Below, piece by piece: positions 667 through 14,904 of a DNA stretch of 15,175 nucleotides (position 1 is its first letter; the number at the start of each line of letters is the position of its first letter). The DNA is from Oscillospiraceae bacterium (GTDB lineage Bacteria > Bacillota > Clostridia > Oscillospirales > Oscillospiraceae): assembly GCA_009786775.1 (NCBI GenBank), contig WQRL01000004.1, positions 1 to 15,175 on the forward strand. The letters run 5' to 3'. A program made the position numbers and the translations under genes. The notes under the pieces were generated by a model. The model worked only from the letters and a program-made list of their open reading frames with translations, was not told the origin of the DNA and made no database searches.

Positions 667-2244
667 ATGAAACGTATAATTGCTTTAATGCTATCTTTGC
701 TTATTCTCGCCGTGGTCACATTAGGCTGCGGAACTCCGGCTGCACAGGACGAAGCTAGAGGGGAAAGACTCAGCATTGTTTCGACAATTTTTCCGCAGTA
801 TGACTGGGTGCGTGAAATTCTTGGCGATGCCGCTGACGACTTCGACTTGACTCTAGTTATAAACAACAGGATTGATATGCACAGCTTTCAGCCATCTGTT
901 AGCGACATGGTCCGCATTTCAACCGCCGACCTGCTCATCTATGTTGGAGGCCACTCCGACGGCTGGGTGACTGACGCGCTGGCGCAGGCGGCAAATCCAG
1001 ATATGATTGTTATAAATCTGATGGACTTGCTGGGCCCTGATGCGCAGATTGAGCATCCTCACCACCACCATCACCATGATTGCGATGATGAGGATTGTGA
1101 ATATGATCATCACGGGCATCACCACCACGGACACCATCATGGACATCATCACCACCATGATGACGACTGCGACGATGAGGATTGCGACCACGAACACCAC
1201 GGGCATCATCATGGGCACCATCACCACCATGATGACGACTGCGACGATGAAGATTGCGACCACGAACACCACGGGCATCATCATGGACATCATCACCACC
1301 ATGATGACGACTGCGACGATGAAGATTGCGACCATGAGCATCATGGGCATCATCACGGACACCATCACCACCATGATGACGACTGCGATGACGAGGATTG
1401 CGACCACGAACATCACGGGCATCACCATGGACACCATCACCACCATGATGACGACTGCGACGATGAGGATTGCGACCATGAGCATCACGGCCATCACCAT
1501 GGACACCACCATCATCACCATGATGACGACTGCGAAGACGAGGATTGCGACCATGAGCATCACGGCCATCACCATGGACACCATCACCACCATGATGACG
1601 ACTGCGACGATGAAGATTGCGACCACGAGCATCACGGGCATCACCATGGACACCATCATCATCACCACCATGATGACTGTGACCATCACCACCATCACGG
1701 CGAAGCTGATGAACATGTCTGGCTTTCACTGCGTAACGCTCAGATTTTCACAACCGCCATCGCTGATGCGCTCACTACCCTATCACCAAGTCACGCCGAA
1801 GTGATTGCCGAAAATGTTACGGCTTACAATGCGCGGCTCCACGCACTGGATTTAGAGTATATCGCTGTTGTAAATGCAGCTGCGACAAACACTTTGCTTT
1901 TTGCCGACAGATTTCCGTTCCGCTACATGGTTGAGGACTATAATTTGAATTACTATGCGGCATTCCCCGGCTGCCACGCCGAGACCGAGGCCAGTTTTTC
2001 CACTATAATTTTCCTCGCTGGCAGAGTTGATTACTTGGGTCTGCACTCAGTCGTCGTAACAGAAAGCGCAAATCCGGCCATCGCAAATACCATAATCGAC
2101 AACTCAGGCTCCAATGCAGATAATGTGCTCGTCTTGGTTATGGATTCCATGCAGTCGAGCAACTCCGCCGACAGGGCCGCCGGCATTACCTATTATTCAA
2201 TTATGAGAGGTAACCTCACTGTACTTGCGGCAGCGCTGGGTTAG
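667..2244 (+). CDS. znuA: Zinc-type ABC transporter substrate-binding lipoprotein with hugely expanded His/Cys-rich metal-binding insert
   Basis: The product (525 residues) is a cluster A-I metal receptor (ZnuA/AdcA/TroA family) that delivers zinc or a similar ion to the permease encoded downstream. A lipoprotein signal peptide ends with TLGC, making Cys21 the likely lipid anchor. The N-lobe starts 'SIVSTIFPQYDWVREI', and the first metal ligand is His72 in MHSFQPS. Residues 130-344 form a low-complexity insert of about 215 residues with about 106 His and 17 Cys in seven near-identical units. Each has a core DDDCDDEDCDHE flanked by His/Gly runs. After it, His350 in DEHVWLS is the second ligand. 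The usual third His (FHDxF) is Ala413 in FADRFPFRY, as in a clostridial subgroup, and a GCHAETEAS motif carries Cys436-His437. Asp493 matches the C-lobe acidic ligand. Family members are usually about 300 residues with a His loop of some 20-30. Zinc is most likely; nickel, copper or manganese cannot be excluded. Confidence 0.93.
   Translation: MKRIIALMLSLLILAVVTLGCGTPAAQDEARGERLSIVSTIFPQYDWVREILGDAADDFDLTLVINNRIDMHSFQPSVSDMVRISTADLLIYVGGHSDGWVTDALAQAANPDMIVINLMDLLGPDAQIEHPHHHHHHDCDDEDCEYDHHGHHHHGHHHGHHHHHDDDCDDEDCDHEHHGHHHGHHHHHDDDCDDEDCDHEHHGHHHGHHHHHDDDCDDEDCDHEHHGHHHGHHHHHDDDCDDEDCDHEHHGHHHGHHHHHDDDCDDEDCDHEHHGHHHGHHHHHHDDDCEDEDCDHEHHGHHHGHHHHHDDDCDDEDCDHEHHGHHHGHHHHHHHDDCDHHHHHGEADEHVWLSLRNAQIFTTAIADALTTLSPSHAEVIAENVTAYNARLHALDLEYIAVVNAAATNTLLFADRFPFRYMVEDYNLNYYAAFPGCHAETEASFSTIIFLAGRVDYLGLHSVVVTESANPAIANTIIDNSGSNADNVLVLVMDSMQSSNSADRAAGITYYSIMRGNLTVLAAALG
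1144..1650 (+). repeat. In-frame tandem repeat, seven units of 72-75 bp, inside znuA
   Basis: Unit boundaries are 1144, 1216, 1288, 1360, 1432, 1504 and 1579. Six units are 72 bp and the sixth is 75 bp, with one extra His codon and one Asp-to-Glu change. A degenerate leading copy (1054-1143) and a truncated trailing copy (1651-1698) flank the array. Units differ mainly at third positions (CAT/CAC, GAT/GAC, GAG/GAA), so the DNA is nearly but not exactly repeated. All unit lengths are multiples of three, which keeps the frame whatever the copy number. Confidence 0.97.
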
Positions 2245-2259: not shown

Positions 2260-2973
2260 ATGCCCCAATTAAGTTGTACTGACTTAACCCTTGGATATGA
2301 AGGCAAGCCAGTTATTTCCAATATAAATTTTGATGTGAATGCCGGCGACTATCTGTGCATTGTCGGCGAAAACGGCTCAGGTAAGAGCACACTGATGAAG
2401 TCCATACTAAGGCTCATCCCCCCGCTATCAGGGCAAATAACCGCCGGCAGCGGGCTGGCCGCAAACGAAATTGGCTACATGCCTCAACAGACTGCCGCAC
2501 AGAAGGACTTTCCGGCCTCTGTGCGGGAAGTCGTCCGCTCAGGCACGTTAAACCGAATCGGTTTCCGCCCATTTTACTCCACATGCGAAAAACATGCTGC
2601 CGATGCAAACATGAAAAGACTTGGGATCTCCCACCTCGCCGGGCGCTGCTACCGAGAACTCTCAGGCGGGCAGCAGCAGCGGGCACTTTTAGCCAGGGCG
2701 CTCTGTGCCACGCAGAAAATCCTTCTGCTTGACGAACCTGCGTCCGGCTTAGACCCCAATGCCTCATCTGAAATGTATGAGCTAATAAAAGGCCTCAACG
2801 ATAGCGGCATCACTATTATCATGATTTCCCATGATATCGAAGCCTCCGTCAAGTATGCCTCCCACATTTTGCATATCGGCAGCCAGTCCTCACTTTTCTT
2901 CGGAAGTATTTCCGACTACCGAGAAAGTGACGCAGGCCGCATTTATGCTGCGCAGCAAGGAGGTACAGCATGA
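2260..2973 (+). CDS. znuC: Zinc ABC transporter, ATP-binding subunit
   Basis: This 237-residue ATPase powers metal import by the adjacent permease. Walker A GENGSGKST is at residues 36-44, the Q-loop YMPQQ at 73-77, the signature LSGGQQQR at 134-141, Walker B ILLLDEP at 154-160, and the H-loop His in MISHD near 193. The LSGGQQQR signature and overall length match the ZnuC/AdcC/MntB group. The start codon has a strong GGAGGAAGG ribosome binding site just after the znuA stop, 15 bases upstream. The stop overlaps the ATG of the permease gene by ATGA at 2970-2973, so the two are translationally coupled. It could serve manganese instead of zinc, but the receptor upstream argues for zinc. Confidence 0.95.
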   Translation: MPQLSCTDLTLGYEGKPVISNINFDVNAGDYLCIVGENGSGKSTLMKSILRLIPPLSGQITAGSGLAANEIGYMPQQTAAQKDFPASVREVVRSGTLNRIGFRPFYSTCEKHAADANMKRLGISHLAGRCYRELSGGQQQRALLARALCATQKILLLDEPASGLDPNASSEMYELIKGLNDSGITIIMISHDIEASVKYASHILHIGSQSSLFFGSISDYRESDAGRIYAAQQGGTA

Positions 2974-3824
2974 TCGGAATGCTTAACCAATTGTCGGCGT
3001 ATTTCCAGTTCCCCTTCGTCCGCTATGCTATGATAGTCGGCGTTTTGATTGCCATGTGCTCATCGCTCTTAGGGGTTACTCTGGTACTAAAAAGGTACTC
3101 TTTCATCGGCTCAGGGCTTTCACATGTAGCTTTCGGCGCAACTGCAATAGCTGCTGCCATGAACCTTACAAACAATGTCCTGTTCGTGCTGCCTGTCACT
3201 ATTATCTGTGCCATTTTGCTGCTCCGCACGGGGCAAAACACCAAGATAAAGGGAGATGCTGCCATCGCCATGATTTCAGTCGGCACTTTGGCTATCGGCT
3301 ATCTCATAATGAATGTTTTCGCCGCATCGGCAAACCTCGCAGGTGATATCTGCACCATACTGTTCGGCGCTCTTTCAATCTTGACTCTCACGAGAACCGA
3401 AGTCTGGCTTAGCCTGGTGCTATCACTGGTTGTTATCGCTGTGTTTGTGCTGTTTTACAACAAGATATTCTCTGTGACCTTCGACGAGGACTTCGCCGCC
3501 GCCACAGGGAACAGGGCGAAGCTGTATAATCTTATACTGGCTGTAATCATAGCTCTTGTCATAGTGCTGGCTATGAATCTTGTAGGAGCACTGCTCATCT
3601 CCGCGCTGGTGATTTTCCCTGCAATGTCCGCCATGCGTGTATTCAAGACGTTTAAGGCTGTCACGGTTTGCAGCGTGATAGTTTCTGTGGCCTGTGCATC
3701 GCTGGGCATGCTGGCATCCATCCTCGCAGGAACGCCTGTCGGCTCAACCGTTGTGGCTGCAAATGTTTTGATTTTCATACTGTTTTGTATTGCAGGCCTG
3801 CTCACAAGGAGGGCAAAATCATGA
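2970..3824 (+). CDS. znuB: Zinc ABC transporter, membrane permease subunit
   Basis: This 284-residue protein of the ABC-3 family is strongly hydrophobic, with about eight or nine predicted membrane helices, and forms the metal channel with the ATPase. Family hallmarks visible are the N-terminal LGVTLVLKRYSFIGSGLSHV segment, which contacts the ATPase, and the 'NLVGALLISALVIFPAMSAMRV' segment near residues 196-217. The ATG lies in the ATGA overlap with the ATPase gene, with AAGGAGG a few bases upstream. Its own stop overlaps the start of the next lipoprotein gene in the same manner. Length is normal for the family. Confidence 0.95.
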   Translation: MIGMLNQLSAYFQFPFVRYAMIVGVLIAMCSSLLGVTLVLKRYSFIGSGLSHVAFGATAIAAAMNLTNNVLFVLPVTIICAILLLRTGQNTKIKGDAAIAMISVGTLAIGYLIMNVFAASANLAGDICTILFGALSILTLTRTEVWLSLVLSLVVIAVFVLFYNKIFSVTFDEDFAAATGNRAKLYNLILAVIIALVIVLAMNLVGALLISALVIFPAMSAMRVFKTFKAVTVCSVIVSVACASLGMLASILAGTPVGSTVVAANVLIFILFCIAGLLTRRAKS

Positions 3825-4387
3825 TTAAAAAATACACTTACTTACTTGCACCGCTGCTTCTCGTCCTGTTTCTCGCAGGATGCTCCGCAGACGCTGCTGC
3901 CACAGGCGAAGATGCCGTTGGCGCAGGAAATGCTGGCGCGCCTGCGGCTGCTGAAAACACCGGCAGCACAGGAAATGAAACCACTGCTATAGCTGGCGAA
4001 AACCCCGGTAATGCGGGAAGCGAAACCACGTCTGCGGCAAATGTGGATATTGATCTGACTGAGCTCAGCACCACAATGATGCAGGCGAGATTTCACCATA
4101 TCTTGTCCAATGCCGAAGATTACTTAGGTCAAACTATACGTGTCCGCGGTCAGTATCACAACATGCCTTTTGGAGATGAATACCTGCATTTTGTAATGAT
4201 TATCCCCGGGGATGAGTGCTGCCGCATGGGTTTTGAGTTTATGCGCGCGGGGGATTATGTTTATCCCGATGACTTCCCTGCCCAGTATGGAGCTCTTGAA
4301 ATCAAGGGTGTGCTCACCCGTGGCTTCGACGGTACATTCGGAAATTTCCTGTACTTGGCTGTCGATGATGTATTTATCATAGGATAA
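3821..4387 (+). CDS. Small lipoprotein with Cys-Cys motif, coupled to the zinc transport operon
   Basis: The start is the ATG at 3821 inside an ATGA overlap with the permease stop. An AAGGAGGG ribosome binding site precedes it, so a longer frame opening further upstream is not used. The product has 188 residues. A signal peptide ends with LAGC (Cys21 the lipid anchor), then comes a low-complexity Ala/Gly/Asn/Thr linker to about residue 75, then a compact domain of about 110 residues. That domain carries 'YLGQTIRVRGQY' followed by 'DECCRMGFEF', a pattern like an OB-fold and reminiscent of the C-terminal half of the DUF1980/TIGR03943 (YcgQ-like) proteins that sit in zinc-regulated loci of Firmicutes. 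This resemblance is from memory of motifs and not searched. Role unknown; an accessory of zinc capture at the membrane surface is inferred from the coupling. Confidence 0.85.
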   Translation: MIKKYTYLLAPLLLVLFLAGCSADAAATGEDAVGAGNAGAPAAAENTGSTGNETTAIAGENPGNAGSETTSAANVDIDLTELSTTMMQARFHHILSNAEDYLGQTIRVRGQYHNMPFGDEYLHFVMIIPGDECCRMGFEFMRAGDYVYPDDFPAQYGALEIKGVLTRGFDGTFGNFLYLAVDDVFIIG

Positions 4388-7505: not shown

Positions 7506-8714
7506 TCACTCCGCCGCTTTGAAGTTGTATACCGGTGTAATTTTTTTAACTATATCCACAGTATCGCCGATGTTAGAAATAATTTCATCCATAGGCTTAT
7601 ATGCAAATGGGGCTTCGTCCAAGGTGCTGCGGTTTACCGTGGAGGTGTAGATGCCCTTCATTGATTTCTCAAACTGTGACATGGAAATGCTGTTTTTTGC
7701 CTGGGTGCGGCTCATAATCCTCCCAGCACCGTGCGGGGCTGAGCAGTTCCAGTCCTCGTTGCCCTTTCCTACACAAATCAAGCTGCCATCTCTCATGTTC
7801 ATGGGAATCAGCACTCTTTCGCCCTCCTGCGCCGAGATTGCACCTTTTCGCAGTATCATAGATTTAAGGTCGATGTAGTTATGGATGGTTGTAAACTGGT
7901 CTGCTATTTTGAAGTTCATCCTTTTTTCCAGTTCCTTGACCATTGCTTTGCGGTTTAATACGGCATATTTTTGGACAATGGCCATATCATGCAGGTAGTC
8001 GTCAAATGCCGGGCCTTCAAGATATGCCAGAACCCTATCCACTTTCTTCCTCTGCTCTTTGAGGCGGTTTTTCACATCTGAAATTTCACCGGCCCGGCCT
8101 TCGCTTTTCATGTTCTCTATTGTTTTATCAATTTGCGCTTTGGATAGGCCGAGAGTTTCAACTCTGGCTTTAGCCGCAAGTTCTTGATAATAGTCACACA
8201 CCTGTTTGCCAAGATTGCGGCTCCCCGAATGGACAACCAAGTAGAGCTGCCCATCTTCATCTTTATCCAGCTCAATAAAGTGGTTGCCGCCGCCGAGAGT
8301 GCCTATGGACAGTGTAGCCCTGCGCAGGTCAACACGCCCGCCGCAACGCAGGTCAGATAGATTTATTTCACTATTGTAATGGTGCGCTTCCTTGCGTATG
8401 TTAAACCCGGCAGGAATATATTGATGAATCGCTTTGTCAAGTTGGCCCAGCTCAATTCTCTTGTCCTTTAGCAAAACTGTTTCCATGCCACAGCCTATAT
8501 CCACACCCACAAGATTTGGCACAACTTTATCTGTTATAGTCATTGTCGCGCCGACTGTGCAGCCCATGCCTGCGTGACAGTCGGGCATAACGCGGACTTT
8601 GCTGCCGTTTATGAACTCCTGGTTTAGCAGATGCTCTATTTGCGTAATCGCACTTTGCTCTGCGTTTTTAGTAAAAACTTTGGCGGTGTTGTATTTTCCT
8701 TTTAGTTCTATCAA
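7506..8714 (-). CDS. rtcB: RNA-splicing ligase RtcB
   Basis: RtcB joins RNA 2',3'-cyclic phosphate (or 3'-phosphate) ends to 5'-OH ends using GTP and manganese, and acts in RNA repair. I take the TTG at 8714 as the start: AGGAG at 8727-8723 stands 8 bases before it, and the protein then begins IELKGKYNTAKVF as is usual for this group. An earlier in-frame TTG at 8732 would include the ribosome binding site itself. Of 402 residues, the metal-site motifs are DCH at 45-47, GVDIGCGM at 70-77 (Cys75), GGGNHF, and HSGSRNLG. The guanylylated His is His328 in APHGAGR. All are present, so the enzyme looks intact. A short bacterial RtcB form. No archease or RtcA gene lies adjacent. Confidence 0.96.
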   Translation of the reverse strand: MIELKGKYNTAKVFTKNAEQSAITQIEHLLNQEFINGSKVRVMPDCHAGMGCTVGATMTITDKVVPNLVGVDIGCGMETVLLKDKRIELGQLDKAIHQYIPAGFNIRKEAHHYNSEINLSDLRCGGRVDLRRATLSIGTLGGGNHFIELDKDEDGQLYLVVHSGSRNLGKQVCDYYQELAAKARVETLGLSKAQIDKTIENMKSEGRAGEISDVKNRLKEQRKKVDRVLAYLEGPAFDDYLHDMAIVQKYAVLNRKAMVKELEKRMNFKIADQFTTIHNYIDLKSMILRKGAISAQEGERVLIPMNMRDGSLICVGKGNEDWNCSAPHGAGRIMSRTQAKNSISMSQFEKSMKGIYTSTVNRSTLDEAPFAYKPMDEIISNIGDTVDIVKKITPVYNFKAAE

Positions 8715-8722
8715 GATTAGTT

Positions 8723-8727
8723 CTCCT
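8723..8727 (-). promoter_or_regulatory. Ribosome binding site deciding the rtcB start
   Basis: AGGAG read on the minus strand, 8 bases before the TTG at 8714. It favours that codon over the upstream TTG at 8732. Confidence 0.75.
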
Positions 8728-8739
8728 GTCAAATCTTTT

Positions 8740-8770
8740 GAAGTTCCCCACTGGTGAAGTTCCCCACTGG
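8740..8770. repeat. Tandem 15-bp repeat, period 16
   Basis: The sequence GAAGTTCCCCACTGG occurs at 8740-8754 and again, identical, at 8756-8770, one base apart. It lies just upstream of the rtcB ribosome binding site, in the untranslated leader. Function unknown: a duplicated regulatory site or a recent slippage duplication are both possible. Confidence 0.9.
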
Positions 8771-14329: not shown

Positions 14330-14614
14330 ATGTTTTCTACTCATGTCAAAGCTGTTCGGGATTTGCGCAATAACTATCCCGAGATTGCATCAATCATCAA
14401 AGAGCGTAATAACGTAATCATAACCAATAACGGCAAGAGCGAAGCCGTCATAATACCCTATGAGGATTTCAGCAAGTACGAAGAATACTTGCATATCCGC
14501 TATGTAAAAGAAAAATTAGCCGAAGCGGAATCCATAGCCGACAATCCCGATGAGTGGACAAGTGCTGATGACCTATTCAAAGAGTGGGATAATTGGGGCG
14601 CAGTCAAGCTATGA
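14330..14614 (+). CDS. Antitoxin of the Phd/YefM type
   Basis: The 94-residue protein has the Phd/YefM fold pattern: an N-terminal DNA-binding and dimerising part ('STHVKAVRDLRNNYPEIASIIKERNNVIITNNGKSEAVIIPYEDF'), followed by an acidic helical C-terminus with Trp residues (DEWTSADDLFKEWDNW, about residues 73-88) that would wrap the toxin. An AGGGG ribosome binding site lies 8-9 bases upstream. Its last codon and stop overlap the toxin start by ATGA. The antitoxin neutralises the toxin and represses the promoter upstream. Confidence 0.9.
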   Translation: MFSTHVKAVRDLRNNYPEIASIIKERNNVIITNNGKSEAVIIPYEDFSKYEEYLHIRYVKEKLAEAESIADNPDEWTSADDLFKEWDNWGAVKL

Positions 14615-14904
14615 GGTTATCGGTACTAAGCCTTGCCAAGAGTGATTTGAAAGAGATACATTTGCGCTTGTCGGAATACGGCGAAGCTCCTACAAAGAAA
14701 TTTCGTGAGAGCTTCGAGAAATTTTGCGCCCAAGTTATGGATATGCCCTTTATGTTTGGACAATGCGAGTATCTCCCAAGTTACCGCAGGGCTGTGATCA
14801 TTTATGATTATCTTGTTTTTTACAGGGTGGACGAGAGCAAGGGTGTTGTCAAGGTTTACCGTGTTCTGCATGGCAAGCGCAGTATTGTACCGTTATTGGA
14901 TTAA
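14611..14904 (+). CDS. Toxin of the RelE/ParE superfamily
   Basis: I place the start at the ATG at 14611, in the ATGA overlap with the antitoxin, rather than an upstream TTG at 14593. The 97-residue product has the RelE/ParE core: an N-terminal strand (LSVLSLAKSDLKEI), two helices, then strands with 'YRRAVIIYDYLVFYRVD' (58-74) and the ending 'VYRVLHGKRSIVPLL' (82-96). Members either cut mRNA on the ribosome (RelE type) or poison gyrase (ParE type). Arg59, Arg60, Arg84 and Arg90 are visible. The sequence does not allow a decision, although the ending and the Phd-type partner are shared by both. Length is normal and no frameshift is seen. Confidence 0.88.
   Translation: MRLSVLSLAKSDLKEIHLRLSEYGEAPTKKFRESFEKFCAQVMDMPFMFGQCEYLPSYRRAVIIYDYLVFYRVDESKGVVKVYRVLHGKRSIVPLLD

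Follow-up and report, generated by a model that had tools for sequence, protein, structure and literature searches.

This locus raises the question of why a metal-uptake lipoprotein should carry, between the two lobes of its fold, a 215-residue tandem array rich in histidine, cysteine and aspartate. The window analyzed here, a stretch of 15,175 bp, is an entire contig. The draft genome to which it belongs comprises 2.06 Mb in 345 contigs and is 69% complete. The gene at 667..2244 on the forward strand encodes a 525-residue cluster A-I metal substrate-binding lipoprotein of the ZnuA family. The first-pass annotation had reported about 106 His and 17 Cys among residues 130-344 (1054..1698, forward strand), and our recount of this segment gave the same numbers: 106 His, 56 Asp, 17 Cys, 17 Glu, 17 Gly, one Pro and one Tyr, that is, 49% His and 8% Cys. 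The sequence, its location in the fold, the operon, the predicted disorder, the excess of silent changes among the units and the reappearance of such arrays in relatives are observed; metal binding, the identity of the metal, the number of ions, their transfer to the core and the benefit to the cell are inferred. The array probably serves as an accessory loop for gathering and buffering zinc. Further interest comes from similar arrays in COG0523 proteins, from a difference in copy number between two forms of the protein and from an unusual core.

The array, delimited by residue counts, tandem repetition and low pLDDT, is built on a unit of 24 residues (25 in two units and 29 in the first). The regular C-x4-C pairs in acidic cores described earlier were found to be eight, seven CDDEDC and one CEDEDC, with starts at residues 139, 168, 192, 216, 240, 264, 289 and 313; on the forward strand these 18-bp stretches begin at 1081, 1168, 1240, 1312, 1384, 1456, 1531 and 1603 (1081..1620 overall), and seven of them were also recovered by a DNA pattern. 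Cys338, the last cysteine of the array, is unpaired. Tandem Repeats Finder describes a 72-bp unit in 7.4 copies (91% matches, score 836), a repeat far outside chance expectation, and in the predicted structure the array has a pLDDT mostly below 50 and contains no helix or strand. The label "metallothionein-like" was not retained. Metallothioneins are Cys-dominated and use C-x-C or C-C motifs; the array shares with them the concept of a multi-ion store containing thiolates, but it is dominated by His, spaces its cysteines as C-x4-C with no C-C or C-x-C, and matched no metallothionein family profile in Pfam. A match of residues 160-180 to the fungal Pheromone family of Pfam (22.1 bits, cut-off 22) was taken as an effect of composition. 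Long reading frames that overlap the array or run antisense to it were discounted, since its low-complexity codons would generate them.

The host protein belongs to the ZnuA family (PF01297, 72.5 bits against a cut-off of 29, residues 37-523), and its best solved relative by sequence profile is AdcA of Streptococcus pneumoniae (E 1.9e-55). The predicted model has two lobes and a linking helix, and the array, unstructured in the model, is inserted between the lobes of this known metal-binding fold, where alignment and pLDDT place it as a disordered His-rich insert ahead of the strand carrying His350. A lipoprotein signal was judged by eye to run from the start of the frame to Cys21 (667..729, forward strand; helix 2-18 in the model), and this cysteine is kept in at least 90% of 53 aligned proteins. 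As in cluster A-I systems, genes for an ABC transporter ATPase (2260..2973; Pfam ABC_tran) and an ABC-3 family metal permease (2970..3824; Pfam ABC-3, 153.4 bits) adjoin that of the binding protein on the same strand, their nearest NCBIfam models being AztA and AztB, respectively, both below cut-off. Among 23 related loci that extend 1.7 kb or further downstream, 18 contain both. Next to the permease gene and overlapping its stop, the forward-strand frame 3821..4387 encodes a small lipoprotein that matched no family in Pfam or NCBIfam; relatives of it occur in 15 of 82 related-locus rows (13 of 79 places once three repeat rows are dropped), many of these stretches being too short to include one.

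How unusual the array is was estimated by a survey blind to it, in which the C-terminal lobe served as the sole query (E at most 1e-20) against 400 genomes of the same family. Matches were obtained in 141 genomes, the present one included, and none in the other 259; all 144 matches were read, and 143 relatives were counted once the window was excluded. Their loops have a median length of 24 residues, a 90th percentile of 46 and a maximum of 206, which bears out the ordinary loop size assumed earlier, as does the range of 12-50 residues given for zinc-specific cluster A-I proteins in PMC4542158. At least two Cys were found in seven of the loops, a C-x2-5-C pair in six and at least four Cys in three; a Cys pair enclosing only Asp or Glu was found in none of the 143, and the highest His count was 55 (L191), against 106 in the window. 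Commonplace arrays would have counted against the first-pass annotation; in this neutral count Cys-bearing ones are rare. They are not unique, as a Cys pair is present in 37 of 176 rows (170 different cores) of a second collection. The latter leans towards arrays because its searches scored about 8,000 candidates each, all of which had to share exact words with the query, and one of them yielded the best 120 of 575 matches; the collection omits two COG0523 proteins, two repeats of the window locus and any locus with a frame lacking a match to either lobe. Two of its rows, P0010 (18 Cys) and P0017 (21 Cys), exceed the window in Cys, none equals its His count (the runner-up, P0002, has 65), and 18 of the 176 loops lack His altogether. 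In the open-access literature we found no description of Cys-pair arrays in a substrate-binding protein.

The relatives also show what else this loop can hold. Four loops of about 200 residues (L111, L122, L180 and L190) contain a ZinT domain (PF09223), which is found at the same place in P0022, P0068, P0090 and P0106, hence in eight relatives in total; short His stretches flank the domain, which in AdcA lies at the C-terminus instead. Like the ZnuA/AdcA loop, the array lies between the lobes, is disordered, combines His with acidic residues and sits beside the metal cleft; unlike it, the array has about 215 residues versus 12-50, tandem units and eight acidic Cys pairs. The array is thus best placed at the far end of the range of a loop that is already known and highly variable.

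The core beside the array is itself divergent. According to PMC7858048, zinc in AdcA is bound by His63, His140, His204 and Glu279. The first two are kept as His72 (880..882) and His350 (1714..1716), each present in all 143 relatives, and the other two are replaced: His204 aligns with Arg415 of an Asp414-Arg415 pair (1906..1911) of which both residues are invariant in the 143 relatives, and Glu279 aligns with Gln496 (2152..2154), where the relatives have Gln (83), His (58) or a gap (2). Cys436 (1972..1974), a candidate metal ligand, is present in 143 of 143; Pro417 is likewise invariant in all of them. The scores remain below the NCBIfam cut-offs for AdcA (103.5 versus 700), AztC (86.9 versus 350) and ZnuA (57.7 versus 268). 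The window protein shares with AdcA its fold and, presumably, the possession of accessory zinc-recruiting elements, and differs in having no C-terminal ZinT, two of the four ligands replaced and an invariant Cys436. The invariant Cys and a core without two of the AdcA ligands point to a putative uncharacterised group of metal-uptake proteins, matched in the 141 family genomes mentioned above; another genome of the genus, G001, encodes a binding protein whose core is identical to that of P0035. Of the earlier description as a zinc-uptake lipoprotein, metal uptake and the position of the His-rich loop were upheld, and zinc can be called no more than likely because two of the four AdcA ligands are replaced in the core.

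The alternative that survives best follows from these replacements, namely that the array serves a metal other than zinc, for instance nickel, cobalt or copper, by way of a core site whose chemistry differs. The Arg and Gln/His at the positions of AdcA His204 and Glu279, with the invariant Cys436 and Asp414 instead, speak for it, and so does general chemistry, as His/Cys/Asp sites bind many metals. Against it, the eight relatives with ZinT in the loop link the group to zinc, ABC-3 permeases serve zinc, manganese and iron, and the NCBIfam models nearest to the ATPase and the permease, sub-cut-off as both are, belong to the zinc Azt system. We consider another metal rather unlikely.

In the favored reading, tandem duplication of the 24-residue unit would have given rise to a giant form of the His-rich, disordered loop found in cluster A-I proteins, offering many exchangeable sites in its His runs and acidic Cys pairs. 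Anchored outside the membrane, the array would capture Zn(II) or a similar ion, several at once, and act as a surface antenna and buffer that raises the local metal concentration and hands ions to the adjoining core cleft and from there to the ABC-3 permease; it would be most important under metal scarcity, as an accessory separate from the transport site. An analogy for capacity is offered by ZrgA, whose 61-residue His-rich loop accounts for 4-5 Zn sites, most of them weak, and is non-essential (PMC9820375). By this analogy a multi-ion surface reservoir is plausible, and a very rough extrapolation would give about 15 or more ions per array. The accessible text of three sources (PMC9820375, PMC4671568 and PMC2770081) describes His-rich segments that bind several ions in ZrgA, Hpn and HypB, which resemble the array in this respect and differ in being shorter, in having other folds and in that repeated acidic Cys pairs are not described for them there. 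In AdcA, the His-rich loop and the ZinT-like domain jointly aid zinc recruitment: zinc-restricted growth was not significantly altered when one or the other was deleted, and was affected when both were (PMC7858048). The contents of the relatives' loops, be it a ZinT domain, a His array, a His/Cys array or a short acidic stretch, fit a set of optional, interchangeable zinc-recruiting add-ons. The gathering and buffering of zinc is further favored by the ZnuA/ABC operon, the AdcA-loop position and the ZinT domain in eight loops and, as described below, by the silent bias between units, the repeats of P0003, the COG0523 arrays and the Cys pairs throughout the window's clade. Weighing against it are the absence of the array from most relatives, the His-free loops in 18 of 176 rows, the Cys-less arrays of the genus, the want of a convincing zinc-regulator box, the two unconserved AdcA ligands and the dispensability of the ZrgA loop.

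The same composition, which suggests a high capacity, could serve the opposite purpose: the array might bind surplus metal at the outer surface and so protect the cell, or dampen uptake in times of plenty. A regulatory role for the ZnuA loop was reportedly proposed by Wei et al. in 2007, and would agree with such a function. So would the sequestration of nickel by the His-rich protein Hpn of Helicobacter, reported in PMC4671568. This is, in our view, unlikely, since the host is an uptake protein within an uptake operon, the ZinT recruitment domain occupies the same loop in eight relatives, and the AdcA loop data (PMC7858048) favor recruitment.

A query with the array alone returned, from 7,999 scored candidates, seven proteins, five of the ZnuA family (P0001 among them) and two COG0523 GTPases, P0123 and P0124. 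With the array of P0124 as query, 50 proteins including itself were obtained, all of them with a CobW domain and, in the three cases with a source name, from Clostridia. A Cys pair within a His-rich stretch is present in 45 of the 51 COG0523 proteins examined, a proportion from which the frequency of such arrays in COG0523 cannot be read because the search method favors look-alikes; a single stretch can reach 75 His and 19 Cys. In many of these proteins (P0123, P0124 and P0126-P0174) tandem His/CDDPDC arrays precede the C-terminal domain. Members of COG0523 are regarded as putative metal chaperones, some of them tied to zinc, and His stretches are common among them, the maximum being 29 His in the survey of PMC2770081. 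Their arrays resemble the window array in combining His runs with CDDEDC or CDDPDC; they differ in their unrelated GTPase fold, in having no signal peptide by eye and in often adding Cys after the pair (CDDPDCCC). As the two hosts have unrelated folds, the arrays look like a convergence on one chemistry. The COG0523 protein of the window's own genome, a 309-residue frame, has no His/Cys array. Extending this, it is conceivable, if doubtful, that a portable zinc-handling repeat, combining His runs with acidic Cys pairs, arose independently in the lipoprotein and in cytosolic COG0523 proteins, that in the lipoprotein repeat number sets its capacity via recombination, and that it feeds a cleft of a new type in which Cys436 replaces the usual His, so that zinc would be relayed from thiolate to thiolate into the transporter.

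Searched across the order, CDD(E/D)DC was found in 30 of 394 genomes, the window's own included. One locus was read in each of the other 29, a further site on another contig of G361 being excluded, and none resembled the lobes of the binding protein or the COG0523 query; many encode small zinc-ribbon-like proteins with a Cys/Asp stretch, and some are isolated, chance-like frames. By eye, the small proteins at L067, L071-L081, L088, L091, L092 and L095 begin with a helical-looking segment, continue with a Cys/Asp-rich stretch (CDDDDCDCC, for example) and in most cases end like a zinc ribbon.

The units of the array were also compared with one another at the DNA level. Aligning seven of them, with one codon dropped from each of the two 25-residue units, gave 16 variable columns, of which 14 are silent; random changes would make 13-27% so (P at most 8e-7 for transition weights of 1 to 8, a value that assumes independent columns and is only indicative, as they are not strictly so), and one of the two residue-changing columns stems from the last unit merging into the terminal His run. 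The residue pattern has therefore been retained during DNA drift. In a quick tree with long branches, the supported clade of the window (10 rows, P0001 included) has Cys pairs in all 10, and presence of the pair changes at least eight times on supported branches, so that pairs were gained and lost repeatedly. P0003 carries CDDEDC with His four times, and its best local alignment is 57% identical to the window protein. P0002, the nearest different relative among the matches listed, keeps a single CDDEDC beside the similarly built hexamers HDDEDH and RDDENR, and hence Cys appears dispensable in some units. Within the genus, L039 (53 His) and L049 (48 His) have long His arrays with no loop Cys, and the codon pattern for CDDEDCDH occurs in one of 19 genomes, that of the window. 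Mostly neutral growth, in which slippage expanded a low-complexity His/Asp stretch that is tolerated as disordered and outside the core, would account for the wide variation of the relatives' loops in length and composition and for the five-unit difference from P0001, which matches the spacing between the copies of the longest exact repeat; set against the silent columns, the recurrence of the His and acidic Cys-pair design in COG0523 proteins and the Cys pairs in every row of the clade, it is quite improbable.

P0001 also bears on the length of the array. This protein of 404 residues is the same letter for letter except for 121 absent residues (363 bp), and it may come from another assembly of the same material. 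Such an exact gap in an otherwise identical protein implies either that the repeat number is variable or that the assemblies differ. The longest exact repeat of the array, 50 bp, occurs at 1216..1265 and 1579..1628 (forward strand), and the shift of 363 bp between the copies is exactly the length missing from P0001; recombination or slippage at this repeat could have removed five units to give the short form, or an assembler could have made the same step. With exact repeats of 50 bp at most, the long form is the harder of the two to create by error. That the 525-residue length is false through misassembly, the real protein having 404 residues or another length, is very unlikely in spite of the otherwise identical P0001 lying on a longer contig (54,135 bp), given that the array units compared all differ in DNA and exact repeats reach at most 50 bp, so that ordinary reads resolve the long form, that collapse at the 50-bp repeat would yield precisely the short one, and that even the 404-residue form keeps 50 His and 7 Cys in its loop. 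The concern about an assembly artefact raised in the first-pass annotation therefore applies to copy number, which may differ between cells or assemblies, and the array itself is real. With three and eight Cys pairs, respectively, the short and long forms of one protein make a ready dose series for relating loop capacity to metal uptake.

Signs of zinc control were sought upstream. Across 168 upstream regions, the best matches to zinc-regulator boxes averaged 11.49 of 20, versus 11.35 in shuffled sequence. A Zur-like match at -184 of the window gene (15 of 20, the best of the 168) was rejected, as it coincides with the beginning of the neighbouring upstream gene, which is read from the opposite strand. 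The sole match to Zur/Fur in the window's own genome (24.2 bits, barely above cut-off) lies in a 403-residue frame that by eye resembles an unrelated ATPase and was rejected; with the genome 69% complete, a regulator may yet be encoded in it. Elsewhere on the contig, two small, mutually overlapping genes at 14330-14614 and 14593-14904 resemble by eye a Phd/YefM-type antitoxin and a ParE/RelE-type toxin. A frame at 7506-8770 on the minus strand looks by eye like an RtcB-like RNA ligase, and an exact 16-bp tandem repeat (8739-8770) lies just upstream of it.
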